A stretch of 40,351 bases of DNA from Bacteroidaceae bacterium (GTDB lineage: Bacteria > Bacteroidota > Bacteroidia > Bacteroidales > Bacteroidaceae). This document shows, piece by piece, positions 12,127-40,068 of this stretch. Under the pieces are notes generated by a model. The model saw only the letters and a program-made list of their open reading frames with translations, had not been told where the DNA came from and searched no databases. Both the position numbers and the translations under genes were made by a program. Position 1 is the first letter of the stretch; each line of letters opens with the position of its first letter. Location: contig JAFZWK010000050.1 of assembly GCA_017617335.1 (NCBI GenBank), forward strand, positions 1 to 40,351. The letters run 5' to 3'.

Positions 12127-12224
12127 CGACGTGTTGACTCTCGGATTTCGACGTGTCGAGTCGGCAAAGTTAACGTGTTAAAATCGTCAACTCAACACGT
12201 TGTCTTTGCCTTTTCAACGTGTCG
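12127..12224. repeat. 22-bp phased dyad repeat, array 1 (five units)
   Basis: Ten-base cores start at 12127, 12149, 12171, 12193 and 12215, exactly 22 bases apart. They read CGACGTGTTG, CGACGTGTCG, TAACGTGTTA, CAACACGTTG and CAACGTGTCG. Units 2 and 3 have both arms changed relative to CAAC..GTTG yet keep full dyad symmetry (CGAC/GTCG, TAAC/GTTA). Spacers are 12 bases and less conserved; the fourth, TCTTTGCCTTTT, is close to the spacers of array 2. No phased unit is seen at 12105 or 12237. The function is unknown. Confidence 0.85.
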
Positions 12225-12245
12225 CATTTCTAACGACCTCTTGAA

Positions 12246-12292
12246 GAGTCTCCTATTGTCAGGAATTTTGAAAGCCTTTTGAAAGGAAGAAG
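12246..12292. repeat. Small dispersed repeat, copy C
   Basis: GAGTC, then TCCTATTGTCAGGA (12251-12264), then ATTTTGAAAG and CCTTTTGAAAGG follow copy A closely. It lies 22 bases past array 1. The CCTTTTGAAAGG piece is itself a perfect palindrome. Confidence 0.5.
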
Positions 12293-12421
12293 TTTCCGCC
12301 CTTATATTTTTGTTGATCCCATCAAGCACCAGAAATGATGGTGGTAGAGATGATAGCATTAAGCATGGTTGCCACTACCATTCCTCGTGTCACAGTTCAC
12401 ACAAGTCGTAAGATGTTGATT

Positions 12422-13228
12422 TTACTTCAGGCTCTTCTCTGTTGCAAGGAAATACAATTGGTAAACACCTACGTTGGCATAACCGTTGTAATTCATGTGA
12501 AGGTTGTCGTTGAGATAGAAGAGATCTTTTGTCTGAAGATTCAGGATGGGAAGACTGAACTGATCGAAGAACTTTATGCCCTGCAAGTCAGCCACATCAC
12601 GTTGTAACTGCGTGTAGTAGTAGAAATTATGACCGCATTTATTGATCTCGGTGCTGGCGGGGTCGTAACCCCCTGTGTTCCACCAGAAGGGCAGGGAGCC
12701 AAAGATATAGATGGTGGCGTCAGGATTGATTTCACGCAACTTGCGGATACAGTAGTTGAGGCCTCCACACTGCGTTGTAAGCTTCTCCTTGTCGAAATTG
12801 TCAGCCTCTGTATAATCCAAGGGCGTTCCAGGCTCTCGATTGTTGGTGTAGTCGTTGGTGCTGGCCCACAGGATATAGATATCATGTTTCTGGGCACGAT
12901 TCACTTGGTCGATGATGGAGCCTTGAAGGGAGGAGAATCCGTATCCCCCATGTCCGTAGTCAGTAACGTTCATGTTAAGGTACTGGCGCCACATCAGTTT
13001 CGCTGCCTGGCTTTCCTTGTTGACGCTGAGGCTGCCACCAAAGACTGCCACTGTCTTGCCCCGATTCTCGCTGAACCGGCATTTCTCGGCTACTTGATGC
13101 ATTAAGGAAGAGTCCACGAGTTCACATCCAAGTTCCTTGAGACGATAAACGTTGCGGGGCACGTGATTTTGAGCGGCAATCGAGGATGCCAGTAATGAGA
13201 TGAAACAAAATAAAAGCAATGATTTCAT
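12422..13228 (-). CDS. Secreted SGNH/GDSL-type hydrolase
   Basis: The 268-residue protein has a Sec signal ending SIAAQ (about 20). SGNH blocks can be followed: block I VFGGSLS with Ser66, block II Gly in YGHGGYGF (91-98), block III ASTNDYTN with Asn125, and block V YLNDNLHMNYNGY with Asp241 and His244. The family deacylates esters, often acetyl groups on sugars. It lies 72 bases downstream of cvfB on the same strand without a clear promoter between, so it may be read through from that operon. The fold call is good; the substrate is unknown. Confidence 0.75.
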   Translation of the reverse strand: MKSLLLFCFISLLASSIAAQNHVPRNVYRLKELGCELVDSSLMHQVAEKCRFSENRGKTVAVFGGSLSVNKESQAAKLMWRQYLNMNVTDYGHGGYGFSSLQGSIIDQVNRAQKHDIYILWASTNDYTNNREPGTPLDYTEADNFDKEKLTTQCGGLNYCIRKLREINPDATIYIFGSLPFWWNTGGYDPASTEINKCGHNFYYYTQLQRDVADLQGIKFFDQFSLPILNLQTKDLFYLNDNLHMNYNGYANVGVYQLYFLATEKSLK

Positions 13229-13300
13229 GTGGAAGAGGGTGTTAGTTAGTGATGAATAAGGAAAGAATTAACTGTTGAAACGATGAGTGCCGGCTTCTGG

Positions 13301-14158
13301 TTATTCAGTCAGCACCAAGCCATCAGGACGGATATCAATCAATCGACGTTTGTAGAGGTCGCCCACAGCTTTCTTGAAGACTTTTTTGCTGACTCCGAAG
13401 ATCGTATATATCTCCTCGGCAGGACTCTTGTCCCCTAAAGTTGTTTTGCCGCCATTGAGACGAATGTGCTCTAAAAGTATTTCGCTGAAATCGGATACCG
13501 CCTTCTGACCTTGTTGCTGGAGGATGAGATCAATCTTTCCGTCAGGACGCACTTGCTGTACATAAGCCTTAAGCCGATCACCCGTTCGGATATCGCGGAA
13601 AACCTGACCTTCATAGAGCAAGCCTCCGAACTCGTTGTCGACAATGGCCTTAAATCCCAAATCAGTCTTCTGCCAAATGAGGATGTCCACTTCATCGCCT
13701 GAATAATAGGGAGGCATCTCTTTGCTGAGATAGTTTTCTACTTTGGCACTGGCCATGATGCGGTAACTCTCCTCGTCAAGATGAATGTGGACAATGTAGC
13801 TTTGCCCTTTCTGCATTTTCATTTTCTGCTCACGGAAAGGTACGAAGAGGTCTTTCATCAGTCCCCAGTCCAGGAATGCTCCGAAATTGTTCACCCATGC
13901 AACCTCCAAATAGGCAAAGTCACCCACTTGAGCCTTGGGATGTTTCGTTGTGGCCACTAAACGTTCCTCGTTATCCAAGTAAAGGAAGACGTCAAGTTCA
14001 TCATCCAAATAGACGTCAATATCACTGCGTATCTCTCCATTAGGAAGGAGAATCTCGCCAAATTTCTCACCGCCATCAAGATAGAATCCGAAATCAACCT
14101 GTTTCAGGACCTTCAGGCGATTGACTCGGCCCAACCGTAATGTGTCACTGCTTTTCAT
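13301..14158 (-). CDS. cvfB: CvfB-like S1-domain RNA-binding protein
   Basis: The 285-residue product from 14158 starts [20 protein letters not shown]. Repeated S1-like modules include [50 protein letters not shown] and [21 protein letters not shown] winged-helix C-terminus ends [10 protein letters not shown]. This is the CvfB/YitL layout (three S1-like units plus winged helix), a conserved RNA-binding protein linked to virulence gene expression in staphylococci. A longer frame to 14260 runs into lolD and is not favoured. The start overlaps the end of lolD by 14 bases, which suggests coupled translation. Confidence 0.85.
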
Positions 14159-14894
14159 CTTGTAGAGAATTAATGTCAATGGAAGAAACGATAGATGATT
14201 CCTTTGCTGTCTTATCCTTTGGGGCAAAAGAGTCAAAAGGTTCTGAAGAGGTAAGGCCATCTACCATGTGGATGGTGCGGTCAGTCATAGAGGCAAGAGA
14301 CTCGTCGTGGGTAACGATAACGAAGGTTTGTTTCAGACGGTCTCGAAGATCGAAAAAGAGGCGATGAAGTTCGTCTTTATTTTGAGAATCCAGACTTCCG
14401 CTAGGTTCATCGGCTAAAACAACAGCGGGATGATTGATGAGGGCACGAGCCACTGCCACACGCTGCTTTTCACCACCAGAGAGTTCGTTTGGCTTATGAT
14501 CAGCGCGATCCGTCAGTTTCATGAATTCCAGCAATTCTGTGGCACGATGTTGTGCTTCCTTACGGCCAACACCCCCTATAAAAGCAGGAATCATAATATT
14601 CTCCAGAGCCGTGAACTCAGGAAGAAGCTGATGAAACTGAAAAACAAAGCCAATGCGCCGATTGCGGAACTGGGCCATTTTTTTTCTGCTCAATTTCCTC
14701 ACGTCCTGACCATCGATGATAATTTGACCCGTATCAGGCTGGTCCAACGTTCCCATAATCTGGAGCAAGGTTGTCTTGCCGGCTCCACTGGGACCAACAA
14801 TGCTGACCACCTCTCCCTGGTTAATGTCTAAATCGATGCCTCGCAATACCTGCAAGGAACCGAAACTTTTGGTTATATTTCTTAAGTGTATCAT
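14145..14894 (-). CDS. lolD: LolD-type ABC transporter ATP-binding protein
   Basis: The 249-residue ATPase has Walker A GPSGAGKT (34-41), Q-loop Gln86 in [17 protein letters not shown], signature LSGGEKQR (138-145), Walker B VVLADEP (158-164) and switch His196. The [12 protein letters not shown] stretch and overall length fit LolD/MacB-type ATPases; LolD drives release of lipoproteins from the inner membrane. No partner permease (LolC/E) is nearby. The last 25-30 residues after the ATPase core are a low-complexity tail. The start overlaps the antiporter stop by one base (TAATG), and the end overlaps cvfB. Confidence 0.83.
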
Positions 14895-17032
14895 TATCTG
14901 TTTTTGTCAGAAAGGAATAATTCTCTGAACCAGCTGCCTATCGTATGCGGTTGGCGAGTAACCACCGTACCACTGGGAGCGAAGACAGAAACTGTCTCCA
15001 AAGGATCGCCCCACTGGTCGGGATAAAGAATCATCACGCTGGTATGGCTAAAATAGCGATAAAGCTGGAGTGGCAAAGAATCGAAAGAGGATTGATATGA
15101 GATGAATCCAGAACGAGCTGTAACAGCAATAATCATATCATCCTTATCCATGTGATTGGAAAGGGATGTCAATTGTGTCCAGAGAGACATCTCATGATAT
15201 TCTGTACGCAAGAAAGCGTGTTTCTGTCGCATATAACCTTGGATGTAGGGCAGAGTATCAGGATGCGCATGAAACTCCAAATGACAATCTAATTGCTCAC
15301 CCACACGACAGACGTGCTCAAGCCACTTGTAGAATCCCACCTCGTATTCGGCTTTTTGAGGTACTGCAATTATCACACGTCGTAATGTGCCAACAGGAAC
15401 GATGCATCTCAAAGCCATTACCTCTCGGTGAGAACCTGCAATCACGTTGTCGATCACAGTTCCAAGGCTGGACTTGGGCATGCCAGTCTCGCGGTCTGTG
15501 AGACATACAATGACTTCACCACAATCGCACTCTCGCATAGTATGAAGAATTCCACTGGCAATGTTCGTGCTAACCCTACTCATGGTGGTCATGTTGACAT
15601 CAGCCGAGGCAGCAATGTTCTGAGCCTTCTCCAAAAATGCCTTTCCCTGGCGGTGGTCACCCTCGCCACGAACATCATCGTAGGCCACAGAAAGTCCCAT
15701 TAGACTATCTGGAATGTATGGATTGCGGATGAGAATGGCAAATTGAGTCATCACTCCTACTGTATCGGCCTGAGAATAAGTGACCAAGCACTTACCGTGA
15801 TACGAACCTCGGTTCTCTTCGAAGGAAGTGTCACTCAAAGCCAGTTTGCGGGCACCGTGACTGGTGGCAAATGAACTAATGATACAAGAGAAGAAAATAA
15901 GCATAACAGTACCATTAAGGATGGCACTATCCATGAGATTCACATCAGGATCTGTGCCAATCATTACAATAGCCAAGGCACCTGCCGCATGAGCACTTGT
16001 AAGACCAAACATCAGATTCATCCCATCATGGGAATATTTATGAAAGCGGTTCATAAGCCAAGCGGCAAGCCATTTGGTAAACATACCTGTGATGACTATT
16101 ACTGTCACTACCCACAAAGTATGGGCATCGCTCACAAGGATGCGAACATCGATAAGCATTCCAACTCCAATCATGAAATAGGGAATGAATAAAGCATTGC
16201 CAACAAACTCAACTCTGCTCATTAAGGGACTGGTTCGAGGAATGAGCCGATTAAGTATCAATCCTGACAAGAAGGCTCCTAAAAGTCCCTCCAAACCAAC
16301 CAAATCAGCCAAGGCTGCACTGAGGAAAACCAAAGCCATGATGAATATGTATTGCATCACATTATCATCATAGCGCCGCAAGAACCATCTTCCTAAACGT
16401 GGATAAGCCAAGACGACAAAGGAACCATATAAGATACACTTTATACTAAAGAGAATCCATGTAAATATTGTGCTGTCAGGTTTGAGAGAGCCCACTACAA
16501 GCGCCAATGAGAGCAATGCGGCAAAGGTTGCAACTGCTGTGGCAACTATGCTGATTACTACCACTCTATGTCGCGTCATACCATATCGGCCTACGATTGG
16601 ATAGGAAACCAAAGTGTGAGAGCTGAAAATACAAGCCAGCATCAAACTGGTAAGAACCCCATAGCCAAGTATATATTTGCCTGCAAGAAACCCCAAAATG
16701 AATGGAATCACAAAGGTAATGACACCAAACTGAAATCCACGACGGCCATAATGCTCCACGCTACCCATGTCCAGCTCTAACCCAGCCAGGAACATAATAT
16801 AGTATATCCCCACTTGACCGAAGAGTTGGAACGAACTATCACGCTCAAGTAGATTGAAACCATATTGCCCTATCAAGATACCTGCAATGATGAGGCCGAT
16901 AACATGAGGAATATGTAACTTGCGAAACAGAAGGGGTGCAAACAGGATAATAAACAACACCACGAAGAATATCCATGTGGGGTCGGTTATTAAAGGTGCG
17001 CCACTAGTCAAAAGAACTGCAATAAGATGCAT
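14894..17032 (-). CDS. CPA2-family cation/proton antiporter with C-terminal USP-like region
   Basis: The 712-residue protein has about 12 hydrophobic segments in residues 10-400, with [18 protein letters not shown] and [10 protein letters not shown] typical of KefB/NapA-type antiporters (PF00999). The part after about 410 is soluble, with strands and helices like one or two universal-stress-protein domains rather than a TrkA-N domain. The family exchanges Na+ or K+ for H+ across the inner membrane. It is first in an overlapping set with lolD and cvfB. A -7 element lies at 17062-17069. Confidence 0.83.
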
Positions 17033-17061
17033 AAAAGGGCCTTTTTACTGTTTCCTTGTCG

Positions 17062-17069
17062 CAAAGATA
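17062..17069 (-). promoter_or_regulatory. -7 promoter element for antiporter-lolD-cvfB
   Basis: Minus-strand TATCTTTG (then C) lies about 30 bases before the antiporter start. There is no TTTG at the -33 distance. Confidence 0.5.
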
Positions 17070-17123
17070 TAGTATTTTGTTGAAAACATGTTCTTAAACA
17101 TACCTTATTTATAATAATTTGAC

Positions 17124-17131
17124 TAATTTTG
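17124..17131 (+). promoter_or_regulatory. -7 promoter element for asd
   Basis: TAATTTTG followed by C matches TAnnTTTG, 47 bases before the asd start. The -33 element is not evident. Confidence 0.5.
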
Positions 17132-17177
17132 CAGTCAAATTCAAGATGAATAAATAAAACAAGGAAAAAATAAAAAG

Positions 17178-18185
17178 ATGAGAGTAGCAATTGTAGGTGC
17201 CAGTGGTGCGGTAGGGCAAGAATTCCTAAAAGTTCTGGATGAAAGAGAATTTCCCTTGGATGATTTGGTCTTGTTTGGTTCAACTCGTAGCGCAGGAAGG
17301 GAATACACTTTTCGTGGGAAAAAGTATGAAGTAAAGCTATTGCAACACAACGATGATTTCAAAGGCATCGATATTGTTTTTGCCAGTGCTGGCGCAGGTA
17401 CAAGCAAAGAATTTGCTGAGACAATCACCAAGTATGGTGCTGTGATGATTGATAACTCAAGTGCATTCCGTATGGACGAGGATGTCCCTTTGGTAGTTCC
17501 TGAGTGCAATGCTAAGGATGCTTTGAATCGTCCCCGCAATATCATAGCAAATCCCAATTGTACAACCATCATGATGGTGGTGGTGCTCCAGTGTCTGGAA
17601 CGCCTGAGCCACATCCGCCGCATCCATGTGGCTTCCTATCAGGCTGCCAGTGGCGCAGGTGCTGAGGCTATGGCCGAACTGGAGAAGCAGTATCGTGAAA
17701 TTGTGGATGGCCACCCTGTTACGGTAGAGAAGTTCGCCTATCAGCTGGCCTACAATGTGATACCGCAGATCGATGTCTTCACCGACAATGGATATACGAA
17801 GGAGGAGATGAAAATGTTCAACGAGACGAAGAAAATCATGCACACCGATGCCTTGTGTTCGGCCATGTGTGTCCGAGTGCCCAGTTTGCGTAGCCACAGT
17901 GAGGCGGTCTGGGCTGAGACAGAGGAACCCGTCAGCCCTGAGACTTTTGCTCAGGCTATCCGCGAAGGACAGGGTGTGCAGTTAATGGACGACCCTCAGA
18001 ACAAGGTCTATCCCATGCCGCTGTTCCTTGCAGGAAAGGATGATGTTTATGTGGGACGCATCCGCAAGGATCTGGCCTGTGAGAATGGTCTCACCTTCTG
18101 GCTCGTGGGTGATCAGATAAAGAAAGGTGCCGCACTGAATGCCGTCCAGATAGCGGAGTATCTGGTGAAGCAGGGGGAAGTATGA
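17178..18185 (+). CDS. asd: Aspartate-semialdehyde dehydrogenase
   Basis: The 335-residue enzyme converts aspartyl phosphate to aspartate semialdehyde with NADPH, the branch point to lysine/diaminopimelate, threonine and methionine. Visible marks are the nucleotide-binding [11 protein letters not shown] (6-16), the catalytic Cys128 in [17 protein letters not shown] and the catalytic His240 in [10 protein letters not shown]. The length is normal for the family. The last codons overlap the next gene by ATGA, so an SGNH hydrolase is translated in step with it, an unusual partner. Confidence 0.95.
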
Positions 18186-19417
18186 AAAAATTGTTTTTAC
18201 TTCTTTTATTTGCGTTCAGTTTCGGTTTGACGTGGGCACAAGGTGGGTCGAGTGAGGTACATCCTACGCCTCATCCTTATCCTGAGAAGTTTTTTCATCT
18301 GAATCCTAGGGGCAGTTTGAACAACTCGTTTCTGAAGTTTGAGCGTGGCGGTGAAGCATGTGTGGCTTTTTTAGGTGGCTCCATTACTGAGATGAGGGGG
18401 TGGCACAATAGCTTGATGGAATATTTCACGACACGCTTTCCCAAAACGAAGTTTCGATTTGTTGAGGCAGGTATAGCCTCCATGGGCTCAACGCCACACG
18501 CTTTTCGGTTGGTTCAAGATGTTCTGTCAAAAGGCAAAGTAGATCTGCTCTTTTTTGAAGCAGCGGTAAACGATGAGGGAAACGAATTCTCTCCCTTGGA
18601 ACAAATCAGAGGTGTGGAAGGCGTTGTCCGGCATGTATGGAACAATGACCCTGAAACGGACATTATTCTTATGCACTTCATCAATGAGTTCTCTCCTGAA
18701 CGTGCCGCACAGGGACAGCAGCCCGATGCAATCTTCAACCATGAACGTGTCGCCAATCACTATGCTATTCCCAGCATCAATCTGGAGCAGGAAATCGGTG
18801 AGCGCATCCTGGACGGACAACTCACGTGGGCAGAGTTCGGCGGCGTTCATCCTTCACCGTTGGGACATCAGTACTATACAGCCACAATGGTGCGACTGAT
18901 GGAAACGATGTGGAGTAGAGTGAAAGGTGGCGATACCGTCTCTCCCCATCACATACCGACAAAACAACTTGACGATTACAGTTATACTGACGGTGAATTC
19001 ATCGATATTCGCGAAGCACAACTGGGGCAAGGATGGTCACTCAATCCTGCCTGGCATCCACAGGATGGAGTTCCAACACGCCAAGGCTTTGTTGATGTTC
19101 CGATGTTAGAGACGACCCAAAGCGGGGCCAAGTTAACACTGGATTTCGAGGGACGTGCCATCGGAATTTGTTGCGTGGCAGGTCCGTGCGCTGGAATACT
19201 GGAGTACAGCATCGATAGATTGCCATTCAAAACACTTGACACCTTTATTCATTGGAGTGGTGGCTTGTATATTCCTTGGGTATATATGTTCGAGACAGAA
19301 CTAAAATCAGGAATCCACAAACTGACATTGAGGATGTCGAAAGACCATAATGAGAAATCGACCGGGACGGCATGCCAGATACGCAACTTCGTGGTCAATC
19401 GCTCTAAACCTGAATAA
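18182..19417 (+). CDS. Secreted SGNH hydrolase with C-terminal beta domain
   Basis: The 411-residue protein has a Sec signal ending TWAQ (20). The SGNH part (about 45-245) has block I FLGGSITE with Ser67, block [11 protein letters not shown] with Asn130, and block [11 protein letters not shown] with His223. The Asp normally three residues before that His is Gly220, so the enzyme may act with a Ser-His pair or take the acid from elsewhere. Residues about 270-405 look like a beta-sandwich carbohydrate-binding or accessory domain. Probable role: esterase on sugar acetates. It overlaps asd by 4 bases (ATGA). The small region after it has no strong terminator. Confidence 0.75.
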
Positions 19418-19497
19418 AATGTAATGGTTCCTGTACAAGGAAAGAAAATAACAAGGAACTGAAAGAATAAGTTCTATTCTATCTTGCAATACGGTCT

Positions 19498-20181: not shown

Positions 20182-20231
20182 TCTGACTTACAGGTTTTGT
20201 CCTTCAAAAAATGTGACATGAGAAATGGATA

Positions 20232-21785: not shown

Positions 21786-21812
21786 ATTGGTTATATTTTG
21801 TTGATTTCTGTG

Positions 21813-21820
21813 CAAAAGTA
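21813..21820 (-). promoter_or_regulatory. -7 promoter element for glyS
   Basis: Minus-strand TACTTTTG matches TAnnTTTG, 28 bases before the glyS start. It lies 24 bases from the divergent parC element, so the two promoters share sequence. Confidence 0.5.
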
Positions 21821-21843
21821 CATATTTTCTGCGGATAATTTAC

Positions 21844-21851
21844 TATATTTG
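21844..21851 (+). promoter_or_regulatory. -7 promoter element for parC operon
   Basis: TATATTTG followed by C lies 43 bases before the parC start at 21894. Confidence 0.5.
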
Positions 21852-21893
21852 CACATAAATAATACAAAAAGAGGGCATGAAGCCTTTCTTATC

Positions 21894-26670: not shown

Positions 26671-27387
26671 CTATTCTTTCGACAGGTGTCCCATGCGCTC
26701 CAGTACGAAGTCGTAATCTGAAAACCAGCGTCCTTCCATGTGTGAGCCTGTCAACTCAGGTCCATAGAAGAAGCTATAGGTAAACGTGTTGTCACGTTCG
26801 AGTATGTCCTTTATAATCATTTGGTTCCATCCGTATTCCATACCCTCATTAGCTAATGTGATATACACATCCTGTGGAGAGACATATTCTCCTTTCTTGT
26901 CGGAATCTTTTTCGCATATCGCTATTTGTCGCCAGATGTCGCCTCTTTGTTCGCCGCATGCAGGCATCTCTTTTGGGAAAGGTTTTCCCTTCTCTTCGTT
27001 TGTCCTTACGAAGATGAAGGTATCCGATTTGGTGTGATTCGACACAACGTGTTGTCTTTGCTGTTTCAACGTGTTGTCTTTGCTGTTTCGACACGTTGTG
27101 TTTGCCGTTGCCTCAGCTTGTACTTTTGGCGTGACGTTTGACGGTGTGGAATGCGATGAATTCATTCGCCATGTGCCTATTGCCGCGACTGCCACTACGA
27201 TGACTGCCGCTGCTGTCCACTTCAGCACAAAGGGTGGGGCGTGACGTGTTGTTTGGGTGCTTGCGACCAGTTGGTCAAACTCTTTCTCAGCGGCATCCAA
27301 TTCTGTTTCCGAGGGAGTTCTCCTTTTTTCAGGATGAAGCGGGATTTCTCCGTTCAGGTACTTCTCGATGAAATCATGTTCAGTCAT
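26671..27387 (-). CDS. Putative one-TM anti-sigma partner of the ECF sigma factor
   Basis: The 238-residue protein has a cytoplasmic N-terminus (1-52), one membrane helix (about 53-73, TAAAVIVVAVAAIGTW) and a periplasmic part. It overlaps the ECF sigma gene by 8 bases, which is why an anti-sigma role is inferred; no FecR or zinc anti-sigma motif is seen. The C-terminal 130 residues (for example GDIWRQIAI and FSDYDFVLERMGHL) are not recognised. The linker after the membrane helix, residues about 97-115, is encoded by array 2 of the 22-bp repeat. Confidence 0.65.
   Translation of the reverse strand: MTEHDFIEKYLNGEIPLHPEKRRTPSETELDAAEKEFDQLVASTQTTRHAPPFVLKWTAAAVIVVAVAAIGTWRMNSSHSTPSNVTPKVQAEATANTTCRNSKDNTLKQQRQHVVSNHTKSDTFIFVRTNEEKGKPFPKEMPACGEQRGDIWRQIAICEKDSDKKGEYVSPQDVYITLANEGMEYGWNQMIIKDILERDNTFTYSFFYGPELTGSHMEGRWFSDYDFVLERMGHLSKE
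27045..27098. repeat. 22-bp phased dyad repeat, array 2 (three units, inside a gene)
   Basis: Cores start at 27045, 27067 and 27089: CAACGTGTTG, CAACGTGTTG and CGACACGTTG. The first two units, core plus spacer TCTTTGCTGTTT, are identical over all 22 bases. The third spacer-like stretch is TGTTTGCCGTTG. The array lies in the coding region for the periplasmic linker of the putative anti-sigma protein. Three units make 66 bp, a multiple of three. Confidence 0.85.
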
Positions 27388-27892
27388 TGATGAATCCTCC
27401 TTTCCTAAGGGTCTTTCTTATGCGTTGGCGTGCTGCGCTCAACATTGCGCTGACGCTTTTCTGATTCATGGCAGTGGCGGCTGCTATCTCTGCCGTCCCC
27501 ATCTGCGCCTCAGTGTGCATCTCCCACAATAGTCTTTCCTTTCGAGGAAGTTGCCTTATGGCGCGTTCCAGCGCCACTCGGACTTCGTCCTCTTCAAGTG
27601 TGGCATCCGCATGTGTCTCAGCAGTATGCTGCGTCTCCTTGTCGAAGAGTGGAGACATACGACGTGTCCTGGCACTGCGCAGCACATTGATGCATTCGTT
27701 TTTTGTCAGCCTGCAAGCCATTCGTTCTGCATCCGCCTCAGTGGGAAGTTCTGCCCACATTGTCCACAGATGCAAGAGCGCCTCTTGCACGGCATCCTCT
27801 GCGTCTTCCGTTTTCGGCAGAAGTTTGGCGGCAAGCCGTAGCAAACAGGGACGCATTCTTTGCGTCACGAAGGCAAATCTGATGGGCTCCAT
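27380..27892 (-). CDS. ECF-type RNA polymerase sigma factor
   Basis: The 170-residue protein has the sigma2 region (about 8-45, TEDAEDAVQEALLHLW) and the sigma4 helix-turn-helix (about 108-165, AIRQLPRKERLLWEM, then TAEIAAATAMNQKSVSAMLS). This is normal length and order for extracytoplasmic-function sigma factors. It would direct polymerase to a special set of promoters on release from its membrane partner, the next gene. No standard -7 element is seen just upstream, so it may control its own promoter. Target genes cannot be told from this window. Confidence 0.88.
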   Translation of the reverse strand: MEPIRFAFVTQRMRPCLLRLAAKLLPKTEDAEDAVQEALLHLWTMWAELPTEADAERMACRLTKNECINVLRSARTRRMSPLFDKETQHTAETHADATLEEDEVRVALERAIRQLPRKERLLWEMHTEAQMGTAEIAAATAMNQKSVSAMLSAARQRIRKTLRKGGFIND

Positions 27893-28183: not shown

Positions 28184-28197
28184 ATACTTAGATGGCG

Positions 28198-28278: not shown

Positions 28279-28286
28279 TAATTTTG
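28279..28286 (+). promoter_or_regulatory. -7 promoter element for beta-helix/FAD oxidoreductase pair
   Basis: TAATTTTG lies 30 bases before the start at 28316. No exact TTTG is at -33. Confidence 0.45.
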
Positions 28287-28315
28287 TTGATGAAAATTTG
28301 CAAAAATAGACACCC

Positions 28316-29530: not shown

Positions 29531-29533
29531 TTT

Positions 29534-31414: not shown

Positions 31415-31423
31415 TAGAGATTT

Positions 31424-33550
31424 CTATCTCAGGATCTTTTTGCCGTCTCTCACATAAATCCCATGAGAGAGATGATGAAAATCTGTGCCGACATACTTCC
31501 CATCGAGACTGAAAATACGTGTATCACGATTGATGATTTGGTGCAAGATATCCCGAATGGAGGTGTCATCGGAAGGGAGTTCTGCAAAATTCTTGAAATT
31601 CTTCCAATTAGCTGCTGCATTATAAACTTCAACGCACCCTGCGGGAACATATACTGTGGCATCTGAATACACATTAGTTGGAATGACAGATTTCAGAATC
31701 AAATGAGGAGGTTCCTGAGCGCGTACGATAATTGTATTAATTGAAGTACAATTGTGAAAAGAATCATTGCCAATGAATAGCAGTCCTTTTGGTAAATCAA
31801 TACTCTCCAAATCATAGCAATCATAGAAAGCAGCGTAACTGATGGTATCTACTGACTCTGGCAGTATCACGTTGCGTATAAGACGGCTTTCTCGGAAAGC
31901 ATTCCTGCCAATCTCTGTTACAGAGAATGTTTCACCCTCAAACTCTGTCGTAGATGGAACGATAATGTCAGGACCACGATAACTTGAATATTCGGCACAT
32001 TCATAGGAGATCATACAGCGATCTGGCATCTTTTTGTTCTTCTGAAAAAAGAATCCATCTTGCGTGAAGTCGTACGTCAATTCTTTGCCAGGTTTACCAC
32101 TTATAATGGTAAAGGAACTCCAGCCTATCGTTGACTGATAAGCGGCCTCACGTCCAGACGGGACCCACAGTTTTGCCCTTCGATACACAGTTGAGGTGAA
32201 CATATCCGCAGGGATGCTACGGGGTACAGTCCTGGTGACAATTACGTCCTGAATCTTATCACATCCTTTGAAAGCCATCTCTCCCAACGTGGCCAGCATG
32301 GAACCTATTTCTATCTCCCGGATACCGCTATTCTCAAAAGAAGACTGACCCAAAGATGTCACTGAAGAAGGAAGGTCCACACATGTCAGCTTGTTGCATT
32401 TGTAGAAGGCGCTGTATCCTATTCCTGTCACTCTATAGCTATGTCCGTCATTCTCCACTCGAGAAGGAATCTCTATCCGACCAGTATATCCGTTGAAGTT
32501 TACAGGGTCTGCGAAAGTAACTTCGCATTGAGTATTGTTCAAAATGTTGTAATGAATGCCATCCACTTCGAAGCGGTTTCCTCCTTTTGGAAAAGAAGCG
32601 CTTGCAGAGGCAGAACTATCCAAGAGATACATACGGTCGATGTCAGGGATGAACTTGTTCTTTGGATCATCAGTTAACGTGATAGGAACAATTGCAGTTC
32701 GACGAGTGCCCACCTCATTGTTGCTCGCATGCACGTGAAACACATAATACCAGTTTCCATCGGAATCTTGGAAAAGATCGCCATGACCTGAACCATTGAT
32801 GCCAGTATTATGGCGAGAAAGGAAAGGATGTCCAACTTTGGTCCAAGGACCGGTAGGTGATTTGGAATAAGCGTATCCCACAGAATAGTCAATATCTCGA
32901 AAATCATTGGCAGAATAGAGAAGATAATAGTAACCTCCATCCTTGATAACTGTTGGGCCCTCAGTGATCTTACCCGTTCCATAGTTCCAGGCACATTCCC
33001 AAGTACCTTCGTCTGCGCCTAAACAACGTGTTATGGTATTCTCTTTGATACTGGAGAAGTCATCAGTCAACTTAGCAACATATAATGTGTTTCCACCCAC
33101 GAAGCGAACGTAGTACATGTATTTTGTCCCATCATCATCAATGAAGACGTAAGGATCAATCTGACCTGTTGAGTGAGGCAACTCATGGATGTTTTCCTGT
33201 TTGTAAGGACCCATGGGACTGTCACTCGAAGCAATGCCAATCAACTCATTGGCAGCATATGCAATGTAGTATTTCCCTTCGTACTTAAAAATTTGGGGAG
33301 CCCAGAAACTACCTGTTCCAAACGTGTCCCCTTTCCACATGGCTAACCCGCCTTGAGCATTTCCAACCGATGTCCAATGGACCATGTCAGTCGAGCGATA
33401 CATACTGAAACCGCTATTCACCTTGTCCGTTCCTGTCAGATAATAGTAACCATTCTCATAGAAAATGGTTGGATCTGCCATTGTAATGGTAGCAGCTTGG
33501 GTACATAGGAGCGACAGCATCAGGGCTATCAAGGATAAGATTCTTTTCAT
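31424..33550 (-). CDS. GH43 glycoside hydrolase fused to BspA-type leucine-rich repeats
   Basis: The 708-residue product from 33550 starts MKRILSLIALM. A longer frame to 33610 crosses the promoter. A Sec signal (1-20) is followed by a five-bladed GH43 domain (about 22-310) with the expected residues: Asp26 in MADPTIF (base), Asp132 in GQIDPYVF, and Glu197 in ITEGPTV (acid). GH43 enzymes act on arabinan, xylan and related chains. Two BspA/LRR_5 blocks follow (about 330-485 and 495-660), each with VT-x-IG-x-x-AF, LP-x-SV and VPxG marks, evidently a duplication. The tail (about 672-708, FSLDGKYVG and HGIYVRDGKKILR) resembles type IX secretion C-terminal signals of Prevotella. Joining a catalytic domain to BspA repeats is unusual. 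Confidence 0.85.
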   Translation of the reverse strand: MKRILSLIALMLSLLCTQAATITMADPTIFYENGYYYLTGTDKVNSGFSMYRSTDMVHWTSVGNAQGGLAMWKGDTFGTGSFWAPQIFKYEGKYYIAYAANELIGIASSDSPMGPYKQENIHELPHSTGQIDPYVFIDDDGTKYMYYVRFVGGNTLYVAKLTDDFSSIKENTITRCLGADEGTWECAWNYGTGKITEGPTVIKDGGYYYLLYSANDFRDIDYSVGYAYSKSPTGPWTKVGHPFLSRHNTGINGSGHGDLFQDSDGNWYYVFHVHASNNEVGTRRTAIVPITLTDDPKNKFIPDIDRMYLLDSSASASASFPKGGNRFEVDGIHYNILNNTQCEVTFADPVNFNGYTGRIEIPSRVENDGHSYRVTGIGYSAFYKCNKLTCVDLPSSVTSLGQSSFENSGIREIEIGSMLATLGEMAFKGCDKIQDVIVTRTVPRSIPADMFTSTVYRRAKLWVPSGREAAYQSTIGWSSFTIISGKPGKELTYDFTQDGFFFQKNKKMPDRCMISYECAEYSSYRGPDIIVPSTTEFEGETFSVTEIGRNAFRESRLIRNVILPESVDTISYAAFYDCYDLESIDLPKGLLFIGNDSFHNCTSINTIIVRAQEPPHLILKSVIPTNVYSDATVYVPAGCVEVYNAAANWKNFKNFAELPSDDTSIRDILHQIINRDTRIFSLDGKYVGTDFHHLSHGIYVRDGKKILR

Positions 33551-33578
33551 GCTAATGTAATTTTTCCATTTTGTCATA

Positions 33579-33586
33579 CAAAGATA
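33579..33586 (-). promoter_or_regulatory. -7 promoter element for GH43-BspA gene
   Basis: Minus-strand TATCTTTG lies 29 bases before the chosen start at 33550. This also argues against a start at 33610. Confidence 0.5.
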
Positions 33587-33659
33587 ATCATTTCCTTTTA
33601 TATTTTTCATTTCCTTTCAAAAGAAAACTCTTTTCCTTGAGTTTTTTGCAACTATCTTC

Positions 33660-33691
33660 TTTGATATTCACAAACAAAATACGTAATTTTG
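33660..33691 (+). promoter_or_regulatory. Bacteroidetes-type promoter for Tat FAD oxidoreductase
   Basis: TTTG (33660-33663), a 20-base gap, then TAATTTTG (33684-33691). This is a full match to TTTG-N19-21-TAnnTTTG, 61 bases before the start codon. Confidence 0.7.
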
Positions 33692-33752
33692 TGAAAGAAA
33701 GCATCACATTTGTCATGTCATGAAGGAGAAACCATAAAAATGATACATCAGC

Positions 33753-35084
33753 ATGGATAGAAGAAGATTTTTCAAAACCTCAACGATAGGATTGGGTGCG
33801 TTGGCACTCAATGAAATGCCTGCTCAAGCAAAGAAGAAGCCGATGCCCTCCACCCAACGTTTAGAGGCGCAGGCATGGTTCACTGAACCCGCACGTAAGA
33901 TTCCGGTCATCGCATCAGCCGACGTGGTGATATTAGGTGGTGGCCCTGCTGGTGTTGCGGCTGCCCTGTCTGCAGCCCGTGAGGGGTGCAGTGTCTACCT
34001 GGTGGAGCGTACTGGCTTTTTGGGAGGATTATGGACTGGAGGTCTTGTGTTGATTGTTTGGTGTCTTTTCGGCGCAAACAAGCAAGGGAAACAGACGCAA
34101 GTCATCCATGGGGTGACTAAAGAGATTTTAGATAATCTGAAACGGCACAAGATGCTCGTCTTTGAACAAAAACCTACGCCTGATCCTGAAACGGCCAAAT
34201 ATGTGTTGGCCGAGATGCTCCACAATGCTGGAGTGAATGTGTTGTACAATTCCTCGGGAGCTAATGTGATCCACAATGGCGACTGTATTGAAGCATTGAT
34301 TCTGGAGACAAAGAGTGGACGTGTAGCCATTCAGGGCAAAATGTTTATAGATGCCTCAGGAGACGGAGATCTGATGGAATGGGCGGGTGAGAATTTTAGC
34401 GAGATGCGATATCAGATAGGACTCAATTACCGTCTTGGAAACGTAGATCATGTGAATCCAAATGCATCAGGATTTGAAGAACAATGGATAGGAAGTGAAA
34501 CACCTCTTCCAAGCGTCAATTGGGTGAACATTTACGGTCAACCAGAGCAGGATGCGTTGGATGTGTTCAATCTCTCCCGTCTTCAGTATGAGTTGCGCAA
34601 GTCTGCTTGGGAAAATACTGAGAAGATTCGCCAGAAACCTGGTTACGAAGACATTTTCCTTTTGGATACTGCACCGATTTTGGGAACACGTGTGGCACGC
34701 ATACTGGATAGTTTGCATAATGTGACTCTCGAGGAATCCATGACTTACACTGTATATAAGGATGTTGTCGGTATCAGTGGCGGCTGGACTAATCTGCCAT
34801 ACAAGGGTGGTGTCGTGAAGGCTAAAGAACGTCCCTACTGGCAAATTCCCTTGCGTTCCTTATTATCCCTCAAAACAAGGAATCTAATCGTTGCAGGTCG
34901 TTGTTTTGGTTTTGAGAAGGGACTGGTTGAGGATGCTCGAGAGATAGGCACCTGTTTCGTGACGGGTCAGGGTGCTGGCATAGCAGCCGCTCAAGCTGTT
35001 TTGCAGCAAACGGTTCCTTCTGATCTCAATCTGGAGAAGCTTCGCTCGGCTCTAAACAGACAAGACGTATTCTTGGATTTGTAG
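33753..35084 (+). CDS. Tat-exported FAD-dependent oxidoreductase
   Basis: The 443-residue protein has a twin-arginine signal: MDRRRFFKTSTIGLGALAL with RRRFFK matching the RRxFLK-type motif and a cut near AQA (24-26). An FAD_oxidored (PF12831) domain follows: VVILGGGPAGVAAALSAARE (58-77), VERTGFLGGLWTGG (84-97), DASGDGDLMEWAG and a C-terminal LIVAGRCFGFEKGLVEDARE. It is related to the FAD part of the 29534-31414 protein but without the beta domain. Tat export means it is folded with FAD before crossing the membrane. It has its own good promoter. The substrate is unknown. Confidence 0.82.
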   Translation: MDRRRFFKTSTIGLGALALNEMPAQAKKKPMPSTQRLEAQAWFTEPARKIPVIASADVVILGGGPAGVAAALSAAREGCSVYLVERTGFLGGLWTGGLVLIVWCLFGANKQGKQTQVIHGVTKEILDNLKRHKMLVFEQKPTPDPETAKYVLAEMLHNAGVNVLYNSSGANVIHNGDCIEALILETKSGRVAIQGKMFIDASGDGDLMEWAGENFSEMRYQIGLNYRLGNVDHVNPNASGFEEQWIGSETPLPSVNWVNIYGQPEQDALDVFNLSRLQYELRKSAWENTEKIRQKPGYEDIFLLDTAPILGTRVARILDSLHNVTLEESMTYTVYKDVVGISGGWTNLPYKGGVVKAKERPYWQIPLRSLLSLKTRNLIVAGRCFGFEKGLVEDAREIGTCFVTGQGAGIAAAQAVLQQTVPSDLNLEKLRSALNRQDVFLDL

Positions 35085-35097
35085 GGATTTATGCCTG

Positions 35098-35138
35098 TTG
35101 GCAAGGAGGAGTAGAAACTTTTATTTCAGCCTTGCCAA
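35098..35138. terminator. Hairpin between convergent FAD oxidoreductase and aminotransferase genes
   Basis: TTGGCAAGG (35098-35106) and CCTTGCCAA (35130-35138) are a perfect 9-bp inverted pair with a 23-base loop. The right arm lies within the last codons of the aminotransferase gene. No T-run follows on either strand, so a bidirectional stop is only a possibility. Confidence 0.35.
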
Positions 35139-36317
35139 AGCCTCCTTGATTCTCCTGATAGCCTCACAGATGTTTTCGTCGCTGGTGGCATAACTCATGC
35201 GGAAACACTCAGGAGCGCCAAAGGCATCACCGCCTACAGTGGCTACGTGACCTACTTCGAGTAAGTACATCGCGAAGTCCGTGCTATTCTTGATAACACG
35301 CTCTCCATCTGTTTTGCCGAAGAAACTACTACACTTGGGGAACAGGTAGAAGGCACCCTCAGGATTGTTCACTTCAAGTCCAGGTACCTCTTTGGTCAGT
35401 TTCACAATCAGATTTTTTCTGCGTTCAAAAGCCTGACGCATGTCTTCCACGCATTGCTGATCACTATTGTAGGCTGCCACAGCTGCTTTCTGTGAGATGG
35501 AACAGGGACCGCTGGTGTATTGACCTTGCAGTTTGTTGCATCCTTTCACTATCCATTCGGGAGCCGCGATGAATCCGATGCGCCAACCTGTCATGGCATA
35601 AGCCTTGCTCACTCCATTAATGATGACAACGCGGTCTTTCAAATCCTCGAACTCTCCCATGCTGGCATGTTTGCCAACGTAGTTGATATGCTCGTAAATC
35701 TCATCGGCAATCACAATCACGCGCTCATGTTTCACCAAAACATTCTTCAACTTCTCTAATTCATCCTTGCTGTATACACTTCCTGTAGGGTTGCAAGGGG
35801 AACAAAGGATGAGGGCACGAGTCCTGGGACTGATAGCAGCCTCTAATTGTTCAGGTGTGATCTTGAAGTCTTGTTCTATTTTGGCTTCCACGAAGACGGG
35901 TGTACCCTCTGCAAGGAGTACCATTTGGGGATAGCTTACCCAATAAGGAGCAGGAATGATTACTTCATCACCAGCATTCACAATAGCCATGATGGCATTG
36001 CAAACGCTTTGCTTGGCACCATTCGACACAAGAATCTGGTTAGGAGCATAGTCCAAGCCATTCTCTGTTTTCAGTTTGTTTGAAATCGCTTTCTTCAGAT
36101 CAGGATAGCCTGGTACTGGACTATACTTGGTCCAATTCTCTTCGATAGCCTTTACGGCAGCAGCCTTGATATGTTGTGGGGTAGGGAAGTCTGGTTCGCC
36201 TACACTCATGTTTACCACATCGATGCCTTGTGCTTGCAGTTCACTACTCTTCTGGCTCATGGCCAGCGTTGCGCTTGGTGACAGGCGATTAAGTCTGTCG
36301 GATAATTGATTGCTCAT
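35121..36317 (-). CDS. Pyridoxal-phosphate aspartate aminotransferase-type enzyme
   Basis: This is a 398-residue class I aminotransferase. Cofactor residues visible are Asn176 in PCNPTGS, Asp205 in IADEIYEH and the Schiff-base Lys238 in NGVSKAYAMTGWRIGF. The substrate carboxylate Arg is in FRMSYATS near the C-terminus. YSPVPGYPDLKKAI and LVSNGAKQS mark the bacterial aspartate/prephenate aminotransferase subgroup. It probably swaps amino groups between aspartate and 2-oxoglutarate; prephenate use is possible. It starts 35 bases after ribBA and is likely in that operon. Confidence 0.9.
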   Translation of the reverse strand: MSNQLSDRLNRLSPSATLAMSQKSSELQAQGIDVVNMSVGEPDFPTPQHIKAAAVKAIEENWTKYSPVPGYPDLKKAISNKLKTENGLDYAPNQILVSNGAKQSVCNAIMAIVNAGDEVIIPAPYWVSYPQMVLLAEGTPVFVEAKIEQDFKITPEQLEAAISPRTRALILCSPCNPTGSVYSKDELEKLKNVLVKHERVIVIADEIYEHINYVGKHASMGEFEDLKDRVVIINGVSKAYAMTGWRIGFIAAPEWIVKGCNKLQGQYTSGPCSISQKAAVAAYNSDQQCVEDMRQAFERRKNLIVKLTKEVPGLEVNNPEGAFYLFPKCSSFFGKTDGERVIKNSTDFAMYLLEVGHVATVGGDAFGAPECFRMSYATSDENICEAIRRIKEALARLK

Positions 36318-36352
36318 CTCGATTGATATTTTATATGAATTCCTTTTTCTTT

Positions 36353-37558
36353 CTACAACTTGTGTCCCATCCTTGTTCTCTTGGTTTCTAAGTAACGTTT
36401 GTTGTGTTCGTTGGGTTCAATCACGATAGGGATGTTTTCCACGATCTCCAGTCCGTAGCTTTCCAAACCTACACGTTTCACAGGGTTGTTTGTGATTAGA
36501 CGAAGTTTGCTCACCCCCATCTCACGCAGGATTTCAGCTCCCACACCATATTCGCGCTCGTCTGGTTGGAATCCCAAATGGATGTTTGCATCCACGGTAT
36601 CCTCTCCCTGCTCCTGCAGTTTATAAGCTGCAATCTTGTTCATCAGCCCAATGCCTCGACCTTCTTGACTCAGGTAAACGACCAGTCCTTTGTTTTCCTT
36701 CTCTATCATCTGCATGGCTTGATGGAGCTGTTCGCCACAGTCGCATCGACGGCTACTGAAGATATCACCAGTCATGCAACTCGAGTGCATACGCACCAGA
36801 ATGGGCTCATTGTAGTCCCATTTCCCTTTATAAAGCACGACATGTTCCAGCCCGTTGCTCTTTTGCCGGAAGGGAATGATGTGGAAGTGGCCATATTCTG
36901 TAGGCAAGTCAGCCTCTACACCTCTTTCCAACAGTGATTCTTCTTTCGCACGATAAGCAATCAGGTCACGTATGGTAATTATTTTCATATCGAACTGCTC
37001 AGCAATTTTCTGTAATTGAGGCATGCGTGCCATTGTGCCGTCTTCGTTGAGAATCTCTATCAGGGCAGCAGCAGGTTGCAGTCCGCTCAGTCTTGCCAGA
37101 TCTACGGCAGCCTCCGTATGGCCGGCACGGCGCAGTACACCTTTATCTTGTGCATAGAGGGGATTGATGTGACCAGGGCGACCAAAGTCTGTAGGCTTTC
37201 TGTTAGGGTCTGCCAAAGCACGTATGGTGGCAGCTCGGTCGTGGGTACTCACTCCTGTGGTGCATCCTTCCAGTAGGTCAACTGTTACTGTGAAGGGAGT
37301 CCCCAACACGCTGGTGTTTTCTTGAACCTGATGATCCAACTCCAGTTCCTTTGCTCTGCTGATAGTGATGGGAGCACAGAGGACACCACGTCCGTTCTGC
37401 AGCATGAAATTGACTTTTTCTGGGGTAATCAGTTCAGCAGCAGTGATGAAATCACCTTCGTTCTCGCGATCCTCGTCATCCACTACAATCACGAATTTGC
37501 CTGCTCGAAAATCCTCTATTGCCTCTTTTATCGTGCTTAGTTTCACTTGTTCACTCAT
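36353..37558 (-). CDS. ribBA: RibBA: dihydroxybutanone-phosphate synthase / GTP cyclohydrolase II
   Basis: This 401-residue bifunctional enzyme makes both precursors of riboflavin. The N-terminal half has [11 protein letters not shown] (27-37), [11 protein letters not shown] and [11 protein letters not shown] of RibB. The C-terminal half has [20 protein letters not shown] with three zinc-binding Cys and [14 protein letters not shown] of RibA. The length is normal. The start overlaps the lptF/G-like gene by 8 bases. No FMN riboswitch fits in this overlap. Confidence 0.95.
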
Positions 37559-39461
37559 ATTGTTTTTTGGTTATTCGTTCACTTATCTGCTCATTCAACT
37601 TCTGAATGTCTTGCAAGTCCTTCCAAAGACGCAATCGATAGCGCCAAATGCGGAAGAAGAAAAAAATGCCGAGAGGCAGGAAAATGCCAGTAAACATATT
37701 CCAGCGTGCGCTGCGGAAGGGACGAGTGTGTGCGTCAGGTGCCATGATGGGATACTCGTTGATGCGTGTCAATATCACGTTGTCGCGGCTGTTGTGCAGT
37801 TCCTCGATCAGGGCCTCCAGTCGGTTGTTGATTCCTATGACCGTCGTGTCCTGTTCGTATCGGAAGAAGAGCTTCCAGTAGTTGGGCATCAGGTAAAGAT
37901 GTGCTTTATCCATGTAGGCTTGGCAGTCCTTGTTCAGTACAGCCATGTCTTGTTGGATGCGCTTGTATTCTGGATTGTGGATGATCACTTCCTTTCGGTT
38001 CAGTTTGCGGGTGGTGCGGAGACCCAGCAACTTCATGAAGAAGTTTCGGTATCCTTCAATGTTGAATACAACAGAGTCCTTGTTGGCACGGTTGATCAGG
38101 AAAAGTCCTATGGGAAGTAGCACGGCGGTGCTCAGCCACATGCCGCACAGCATGTTCCATTGTCCCGTCTTAGCCATTTTCTCGCTTCCTACGTTGATAA
38201 TGTAGTAAAATATGAAAATGATTACGCTGATGACTACAGGAATCCCCAGTCCTCCCTTGCGGATAATCGCTCCTAAGGGAGCTCCGATGAAGAAGAACAG
38301 GAGACAGGCGAGGCTCATTGTGTACTTTTTGTTGGCTTCCATGTGATGTTTCCTTAACTGCAGGTTCGAGTCAGCTGTGATGATGGCTCTGAAGTCATAT
38401 TCTGCCTGAGCTGTCGAGACACGTTGCATGGCAGTTCGCCAGGAAGCACTCTGTTCCTCCTCCGTCATGTTAAAGTAGGTGGAGTCGAAGGGCTCTCTGT
38501 TTTGGGCGTTAGCCACTATCTTGACAGAATCTTTTGTACCGGTCGGCAAGTCTCGTTTCAGGATAGTCTCCAAGCTGTTCTTGCAGATAGCGTGACCCAT
38601 GCTGTCAGTCAGGTGAGTCAGCGAGTCGATACCTCGATAAACTTCCGCCAGGTCCTTCGTTTGCGCGTTGCCAGCAAAGAGGTTGGCATCCATCAGGTTG
38701 AAGTTCCCGTCAAAGGGAATCACGTCGACTTCTGTGACAAAGGATTCACGCATGTAGGGAACATTGGCACGCAGGATATTGTTGCCTCCTTGATTGTCCA
38801 TGTTGCGGAATCGCTCGCCATTGTAAAGAGTCAGCATCAGATGCATCTTGTCCTCAGTACTCTGAAGGCGGGCACTGTCGGCTAATACGATCTGTGCATC
38901 CTCGTATCCGTCCGTAGTGCTGTAGATCATCACGCCATACAGCATCCCTGTCTCCTTGTCCTTGTGTTCCACAAAGAGATTGTAACCAGGGATGGAGTTG
39001 TAGAAGATTCCCTCAGGAATCTCCAGCTCAGGCGATTTCTGTTTCATGCTCCAAACCAGCGTGGCCAATTGCTTGGTGGCTTCTGGACCAATGTTGTTCT
39101 GGAAATAGAAACTGCCTCCGCAGACAAGCAGGACAAACAGGAAAATGGGCTGCAGGATACGTACCAAAGGAATGCCCGCTGCCTTCATGCTCAGCAGTTC
39201 GAAACGTTCGCCCAGATTGCCGAAAGTGATCAGGCTCGCCAATAAAACGGCTAAAGGAAGACTGGTGGGCACCAAAGTCAGTCCACTGTAGTAGAAGAAT
39301 TTCATCAGCACCTCAGTGCTCAGTCCCTTTCCAATCAATTCGTCCACATATCTCCACATGAATTGCATCATGAAAATGAACAGGCAAATGAAAAAAGTTC
39401 CCGCAAAGAGTAGCAGGTAAGATTTCAGAATGAAAATGTCCAGTTTCTTTATTATTCTCAT
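37551..39461 (-). CDS. LptF/LptG (YjgP/YjgQ)-family permease, enlarged
   Basis: The 636-residue product from 39461 starts [16 protein letters not shown]; an ATG at 39470 would add three residues. Three N-terminal membrane segments (about 10-33, 55-80, 100-120), a large periplasmic part, then three segments (about 375-460) give the LptF/LptG plan, the inner-membrane core that lifts lipopolysaccharide with LptB. A C-terminal extension of about 160 residues with one more hydrophobic stretch ([18 protein letters not shown]) makes it much longer than the proteobacterial 350-400 residues, as in other Bacteroidetes members. It is first in a run with ribBA and the aminotransferase. Confidence 0.85.
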
Positions 39462-39486
39462 AATGCACACGTGCGCAATCGATGGA

Positions 39487-39494
39487 CAAAGGTA
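39487..39494 (-). promoter_or_regulatory. -7 promoter element for lptF/G-like gene
   Basis: Minus-strand TACCTTTG lies 26 bases before the start at 39461, supporting that start. Confidence 0.5.
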
Positions 39495-39568
39495 CTACAA
39501 TTACGTGAAAAGAGAAAGATTCACAAGATGAAAGTTTCACCTTTTCTCATTTTTTTCTTTGTATTTTC

Positions 39569-39599
39569 TTTGCAGATACGGAAAAAGTATCTACCTTTG
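39569..39599 (+). promoter_or_regulatory. Bacteroidetes-type promoter for tRNA-Met
   Basis: TTTG (39569-39572), a 19-base gap, then TACCTTTG (39592-39599), 20 bases before the tRNA 5' end. A full consensus match. Confidence 0.7.
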
Positions 39600-39618
39600 C
39601 ACTCGCAAATCAGCGGAT

Positions 39619-39692
39619 GGCGGGATAGCTCAGCTGGTTAGAGCGTCGGATTCATAATCCGAAGGTCAAGGGTTCAAGTCCCTTTCCCGCTA
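39619..39692 (+). tRNA. tRNA-Met (anticodon CAU)
   Basis: The 74-base tRNA has acceptor arms GGCGGGA and TCCCGCT (G1 with U72), discriminator A, D-arm AGCTCAGCTGGTTAGAGC, anticodon stem TCGGA/TCCGA around TTCATAA, and T-loop TTCAAGT. CCA is not encoded. It lacks the C1-A72 mismatch of the initiator, so it is elongator Met, or less likely a lysidine-modified Ile tRNA. Confidence 0.93.
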
Positions 39693-39698
39693 CGAAAC

Positions 39699-39735
39699 AA
39701 CCCTTGTAACCGATTGGATTACAGGGGTTATTTGT
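39699..39735 (+). terminator. Rho-independent-like terminator after tRNA-Met
   Basis: AACCCTTGTAA (39699-39709) pairs with TTACAGGGGTT (39719-39729), 11 bp with one G-T pair and a 9-base loop, followed by the T-rich ATTTGTTT. It is 6 bases past the tRNA. Confidence 0.7.
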
Positions 39736-39992
39736 TTCCTGAGAGGTACTGAAAGAGTACGAGGTAGCAAATCATACGAGACCTACACCAATGAAACGCT
39801 TTATTGTTAATGGAAATTTCTAAACGTATCGCGTGGTACGCATGGTGCGCAGGTCAAGACAGTCTTCAACAACTCCCCCTCATTTTATCCCATACTACCC
39901 GCAAATTCAATGGGCGCTGCGCATGCTGACTCCTGCAGTACATGCCAACTCGCTTTTTCAGGAAACTCCTCATCGCTTTGTTTCTCCAAACG

Positions 39993-40068
39993 CAACACGT
40001 TGAAACCCCAAAGTCAACACGTTGAAACCCCAAAGTCAACACGTTGAAATCCCAAAGTCAACACGTTG
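39993..40068. repeat. 22-bp phased dyad repeat, array 3 (four units)
   Basis: Identical cores CAACACGTTG start at 39993, 40015, 40037 and 40059. Spacers are AAACCCCAAAGT twice, then AAATCCCAAAGT, and AAATCAGAAAGT after the last core. Read on the other strand, the core is CAACGTGTTG and the spacer ACTTTGGGGTTT, which is close to the array 2 spacer TCTTTGCTGTTT. It is therefore the same family in the opposite orientation. Confidence 0.88.

Follow-up and report, generated by a model that had tools for sequence, protein, structure and literature searches.

Nucleoid-protein sites (MatS, Noc and SlmA sites) are many dispersed palindromes per chromosome, present as single sites of conserved sequence. 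In phased operator and iteron arrays (R6K iterons, ArgR boxes), repeated protein sites lie about two helical turns apart at one or few loci. To our knowledge, the genome-wide sets of protein sites described in bacteria keep their sequence constant and let their spacing vary. Here we examine arrays of short palindromic cores at a 22-bp step in a 40,351-nucleotide stretch of a Bacteroidaceae genome (contig JAFZWK010000050.1; hereafter the window), where, by contrast, the spacing does not vary by a single base pair and the word is swapped between species. Like MatS, Noc and SlmA sites, these are many dispersed palindromic sites, but they form phased arrays with a changing core; iteron-type arrays would work similarly, but the present arrays are dispersed over the genome and have genome-specific cores. 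Two kinds of repeat element are also close. Repetitive extragenic palindromes (REP), with their BIME and REPIN composites, are characterised as dispersed, extragenic and palindromic, favouring co-directional and convergent gene ends (PMC3733652); their location at gene ends is like that of the arrays here (PMC3733652, PMC6006769), which differ in having a fixed 22-bp step and a core that changes between species. BrickBuilt of Porphyromonas gingivalis is a minisatellite-like miniature inverted-repeat transposable element (MITE) built of 23-nt units, with terminal inverted repeats as well as a leader and a tail (PMC4596501). Like our arrays, it belongs to the order Bacteroidales and is found at many intergenic loci as tandem units close to two helix turns long (PMC4596501); ours differ in having 22-bp units and no common flank beyond about +24.

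The original prediction placed three such arrays in the window, and direct reading confirmed their positions, step and unit numbers. Array 1 (12127..12224) has five cores, starting at 12127, 12149, 12171, 12193 and 12215, with four 12-bp spacers; array 2 (27045..27098) has three, at 27045, 27067 and 27089, the third being CGACACGTTG; and array 3 (39993..40068) has four, at 39993, 40015, 40037 and 40059. None of the arrays was assigned a strand. Spacers are 12 bp throughout, as predicted, and arrays 2 and 3 do share a spacer consensus (TCTTTGCTGTTT, which becomes ACTTTGGGGTTT after reverse-complementing). The description of the ten-base cores as CAAC-[GT or AC]-GTTG "and variants" holds as well, with array 1 made up mostly of variants: its cores read, in order, CGACGTGTTG, CGACGTGTCG, TAACGTGTTA, CAACACGTTG and CAACGTGTCG, and one of the five is an exact CAAC-RY-GTTG. 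This array is degenerate, and both TRF and a scan for similarity at a lag of 22 bp (60% identity) miss it while recovering the other two, for which the lag-22 similarity spans 27021-27131 and 39962-40099. The window contains 12 copies of AACRYGTT where 2.32 would be expected, a count reached in none of 100 shuffles.

The phasing is genome-wide. The window's own genome (G000; 2.37 Mb, 62% complete, with G000 and its relative G009 spanning 62-67%) contains 210 AACRYGTT pairs at 22-bp spacing, and a reversed-pattern control gives none. The 22-bp phasing is thus neither confined to these places nor at chance frequency, so that the refuting condition set beforehand did not hold, and together with the density in sampled bases this supports the suggestion that the arrays are units of a genome-wide element. 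In 418,510 sampled bases of this genome, partly picked for places where arrays were already listed, which inflates density and leaves phasing unaffected, there are 112 AAC(AC|GT)GTT cores against 10.3 expected under a first-order model. All 60 neighbour distances of up to 120 bp are either 22 bp (58) or 44 bp (2), and the centre of CAACNNGTTG is mostly AC (46) or GT (39), with AT twice and GC three times. Although copied units occur within some arrays, 68 of 80 spacers are distinct. Pairing between neighbouring half-spacers was considered and rejected: in this genome likeness is below that of shuffled sequences both across the spacer (sum z -4.6) and across the core (-3.7), and above it between array ends (2.5); in the same test all three values are positive for mixed C-type public loci pooled from several species (2.3, 5.4, 6.1) and slightly negative for T-type loci (-0.8, -1.9, -1.5).

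The step is clearest in G447, a 99% complete genome from a different genus of the same family, in which the core is TTGCGCAA. With start-to-start distances of 10-40 bp permitted, there are 142 pairs of this core, and among the matches listed the distance is exactly 22 bp in 50 of 50. In ten 4-kb stretches, every perfect core belongs to an array, the arrays are intergenic in nine of ten cases, and all 30 spacers of the ten arrays are distinct, with a mean pairwise identity of 0.40 (taking the better of the two orientations, and with no baseline from random sequence) and values above 0.7 in 1.1% of pairs. Fixed whole-turn spacing whatever the spacer, the mark of a phased binding array, is therefore present both here and in the sample from the window's own genome. 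Since tandem duplication would have copied the spacers too, the cores of G447 appear to be held at their step by selection.

A comparison of the window's own genome with G009 shows how individual arrays change. Among 32 arrays of the former, nine correspond to an array in the G009 sample, and for the other 23 that sample holds no ortholog; conversely, for 49 arrays of G009, 38 have no corresponding place in the G000 sample, nine have an array (one doubtful) and two places lack one. Eight arrays have cleanly aligned flanks, of which five are equal in length and three differ by 22, 22 and 44 bp. In the five same-length pairs, one of them near-identical throughout, identity is 103/108 in cores, 207/252 in spacers and 547/650 in flanks, so that spacers are conserved no better than flanks. 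The copy-number differences and the two places lacking an array are what one would expect of a neutral or selfish minisatellite, in which slippage and gene conversion would propagate 22-bp units that have no function, and so are the shared half-spacer vocabulary of G000 and the identical spacers that recur inside some arrays (e.g. L036). However, such units would be copied spacer and all, which makes this explanation already hard to hold for G447, with its unrelated spacers at exact phase; a single period across different cores, and cores better conserved than spacers, also argue against it, and we consider it rather improbable. At one array (L128 near 13162, compared with L225) the two genomes are 95-100% identical around the array, whereas elsewhere the sites compared reach about 83-93%, and a recent exchange there is possible.

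Looking further afield, the AACRYGTT pair is present in 10 of 61 genomes searched, the window's own included, all from the same genus and three of them with 210-243 pairs. A scan of public genomes for three cores in a row found at least 106 loci; among the matches listed most come from ruminant "Bacteroidaceae" metagenome-assembled genomes (MAGs) or from Porphyromonas canoris, and a few from unrelated phyla. No viral contig matched the three-core AACRYGTT pattern, and a viral origin was rejected on that core, other cores not having been tried on viral contigs. G016 and G003 have no AACRYGTT pair, yet both show an excess of lag-22 similarity (14 vs a median of 4, and 17 vs 3, respectively). Tandem arrays were counted per period, from 12 to 60 bp, in each genome group. 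G000 has 27 arrays at 22 bp and 15 at 44 bp, the next period reaching 6; G009 has 38 and 22 (next 5); four genus-mates have 20 and 16 in 300 kb (next 3); and G201 has 5 and 3 in 100 kb, with none at other periods. Other genera of the family have two arrays at 22 bp in 80 kb and none at other periods, or three in 134 kb when 54 kb is added at a slightly lower cut-off. Sixteen stretches from other families (235 kb, with one stretch consisting of 422 bases of N and several short) have no array at 22 bp and two at 23 bp, and 50 kb of E. coli has none at 22 bp. Apart from 44 bp, no period other than 22 bp is abundant in any of the sampled genome groups of the genus or in G201. The stretches from G000, G009, G447 and part of those from G201 and G024 were selected because arrays were known there; those selected blind to arrays still contain three in 80 kb (G016), three in 60 kb (G003) and five in 80 kb (G012).

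The units of these other genomes use other words, among them GGTTAACC, CTGCAG, AACTAGTT and GAACGGTC, with GACCTAGGTC in G363. Spacer pieces such as AAGTYGGGCAACTT are common to arrays with AACRYGTT cores and arrays with CTGCAG cores. A scan of the family for three AACNNGTT found matches in 20 of 251 genomes, belonging to 5 of 30 genera; the backward control TTGNNCAA was above zero in 19 of 251 and is in some genomes a second real array family, while the control matches of G549 are an 11-bp rather than a 22-bp repeat. What relatives share is the 22-bp phase and not the sequence, and the earlier designation as "a repeat family" is for this reason too narrow, the core varying between genomes and the phase being the constant part. 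Several genomes have peculiarities of their own. Among the matches listed, G549 repeats TTGTTCAA every 11 bp, or one helical turn, on four contigs (C74, C125, C146 and C214). In G201, a CCCCTCT/AGAGGG-like inverted sequence adjoins the AACTAGTT arrays (L260, L261, L262), and in the JAGAAS MAG the arrays are GC-centred (CAACGCGTTG) with a common CCCCC-rich outer sequence (L034, L037, L058, L065, L068, L103, L118). Also among the matches listed, the AACNNGTT arrays of G515 and G612 are longer multi-unit blocks recurring at many places. In P. canoris the AACRYGTT arrays (L054, L064, L079, L092, L099, L102, L119) have some three units each, their spacers are nearly the same and their flanks are common, more like a small mobile element.

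The longer blocks that recur in P. canoris, G515 and G612, the dispersal of copies, their presence or absence between relatives and the partial complementarity of array ends in G000 (sum z 2.5) would all fit a MITE with internal repeats, moved by a transposase acting in trans. The copies in P. canoris do share flanks. A conserved leader or tail, or terminal inverted repeats, are not seen in G000 and G009, whose arrays have no common flank: their 141 array ends consist of a T-rich half-site followed by a degenerate core at +13, and past about +24 no word is strongly tied to its position, the strongest later one being AACG at +45 (6/141). Taken with the unrelated spacers of G447 and the Y1 transposase detected in one of nine genomes, other transposases not having been tested, this makes a MITE very improbable as the general explanation. 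That single Y1 (RAYT) match (PF01797) is in G003 at 22.7 bits, the 99% complete G201 and G363 having none and an E. coli control being positive; REP/BIME elements with a cognate RAYT were accordingly rejected, eight of nine genomes being without one (with G000 and G009 62-67% complete). The GTAG/CGTC tag at the hairpin foot, a REP trait, cannot be seen among the units listed, although no search aimed at the tag was run. No description of this class of array was found in the open-access PMC literature, subscription papers being outside the scope of that search. By analogy, the arrays may be genome-wide palindromic sites of a kind already known, set apart by their fixed phase and changing core.

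Where the arrays lie relative to genes was assessed with in-house open reading frame (ORF) and codon scoring. Among 110 arrays from eight genome groups, 55 are between co-directional, 20 between convergent and 12 between divergent genes; seven are inside ORFs and 16 are at contig edges and unclassed. Co-directional arrays are nearer the 3' end of the upstream gene in 45 of 55 cases (p 2e-6), with medians of 63 bp to that end and 190 bp to the next start. This location, with 7 of 110 arrays in ORFs, is the extragenic, gene-3'-end location typical of REP/BIME. Arrays occupy 20 of 55 convergent, 51 of 212 co-directional and 11 of 84 divergent gaps of at least 120 bp, and their share differs significantly between convergent and divergent gaps (p 0.0017), but not between convergent and co-directional ones (p 0.086). 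The sense orientation of AACRYGTT to the gene is without strand preference (GT 20, AC 14, tie 4). In the window, array 1 lies between the convergent genes 10686-11882 (+) and 12422-13228 (-), and array 3 lies downstream of a tRNA gene (39619-39692, +), some 300 bp away; Rfam matched two tRNAs in the window and no other RNA family, and a known RNA family was rejected on this result. An ordinary intrinsic terminator hairpin stands beside some arrays, with the array downstream of it in L204 (near 4978) and upstream in L266 (6918-7041).

The occurrence of different words at one 22-bp step across species suggests a putative DNA-binding protein aligned on one face of the DNA. We consider it probable that the arrays are DNA-level binding platforms for a putative dimeric protein, on one helix face and near gene ends. 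Each 22-bp unit would carry one core as the site of a putative DNA-binding dimer, and contacts between proteins would fix the step of two helical turns, so that some 3-6 dimers align on one face and touch each other. A genome holds on the order of a hundred arrays, mostly intergenic and near gene 3' ends, where they would most likely mark off transcription units as boundary or 3'-end elements, acting as a boundary, in transcription stop or in chromosome organisation. A change of specificity would swap the cores between species, leaving the geometry and the 22-bp step in place. It is the best-fitting reading, given that neither unrelated spacers nor other cores disturb the exact phase; to that extent the original prediction of a one-face platform for a putative dimeric protein is supported.

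Several observations weigh against such a platform. No candidate binding protein was found for the arrays, no co-occurrence test having been run; only 7 of 25 arrays from other genomes show significant dyad symmetry over the whole unit, and the units of G016 and G003 are not clearly palindromic. Duplication and copying must also act, given the limited spacer vocabulary and the 22- and 44-bp copy-number shifts in G000 and G009. Most places turn over, as is clear from three G024 array-side genes whose close orthologs (78-88% identical) have no array; conservation of place across the genus was rejected on these three, the closest among 15 array-side genes with a match, while weaker matches are mixed, two adjoining G000 arrays. 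Finally, a separate intrinsic terminator, called with an in-house finder in G000 and G009, is rarer in gaps that hold an array (18 of 65) than in those that lack one (76 of 158; p 0.007). Array RNA also folds well, with a mean z of -3.0 (130 strands), compared with -0.46 for 65 flanks. The last two points would be expected if the arrays acted as RNA, as bidirectional terminators or 3'-UTR (untranslated region) hairpins in which cores pair with each other and the T-rich ends provide the U-tract. The bias towards upstream 3' ends and the excess in convergent over divergent gaps fit this as well, and array ends are often TCTTTT or TGTTTT. As to a hairpin with a T-tract oriented to the upstream gene, the picture is mixed: the same finder places a terminator-like hairpin within 18 of 65 arrays, and T-rich ends lie on both sides. 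However, orientation is unbiased although the GT strand folds better (-0.283 vs -0.208 kcal per nt), and at least six T in nine are found at 10 of 31 upstream and 12 of 31 downstream ends of co-directional arrays, whatever the gene direction (in G000 alone, 2/11 and 6/11). Nor would RNA pairing call for an exact 22-bp step when the spacers are unrelated, and array 2 sits in the middle of a gene. We regard terminators as the main rival, though an unlikely one, and prefer protein-binding platforms. More tentatively, and at somewhat less than even chance, the arrays might be a family-wide chromosome mark, with a putative oligomerising protein of fixed 22-bp geometry and fast-changing specificity co-evolving with a genome-specific palindrome, and about a hundred phased arrays behind genes serving as boundary elements; species would then write the same mark in different sequence. 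If this is indeed a binding system, it points to a protein not yet described that organises DNA or sets transcription boundaries in this family of rumen and gut bacteria, for which a species' own phased word could be used as bait.

Array 2 shows that an array can be an old, in-frame part of a gene. It encodes residues 97-115 of a 238-aa ORF (26671-27387, -), and this gene has a 22-bp array after a hydrophobic stretch in nine of nine genomes (G000, G009, G035, G012, G005, G008, G027, G024 and G036; a G003 match is excluded from the count, and the G012 and G024 arrays are identical in sequence). In each of the nine, 22 ranks first among 51 periods, with a best identity of 0.70-0.93, and the cores vary between CAACRYGTTG, CACGAGAAGT, CACACGTGAAGT and ACGTGTTAAGT. 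Because 22 is not divisible by 3, repetition at the protein level does not account for this conservation. One ORF of G035 (L154 1410-1643) holds about ten adjacent 22-bp units, which are of two different kinds. Pfam gave no match for the 238-aa ORF, which adjoins a sigma-factor gene (27380-27892) carrying Sigma70_r2 and r4_2; it could be called anti-sigma-like only for its place after that gene and its hydrophobic stretch. In G000 and G009 the ORF resembles a fusion, its first part being similar to a gene of about 240 aa in relatives and its last part, the C-terminal half, to the C-terminal end of another, separate gene that is about 530 aa long (L142, L144, L146, L149), which places array 2 near the apparent point of gene fusion.

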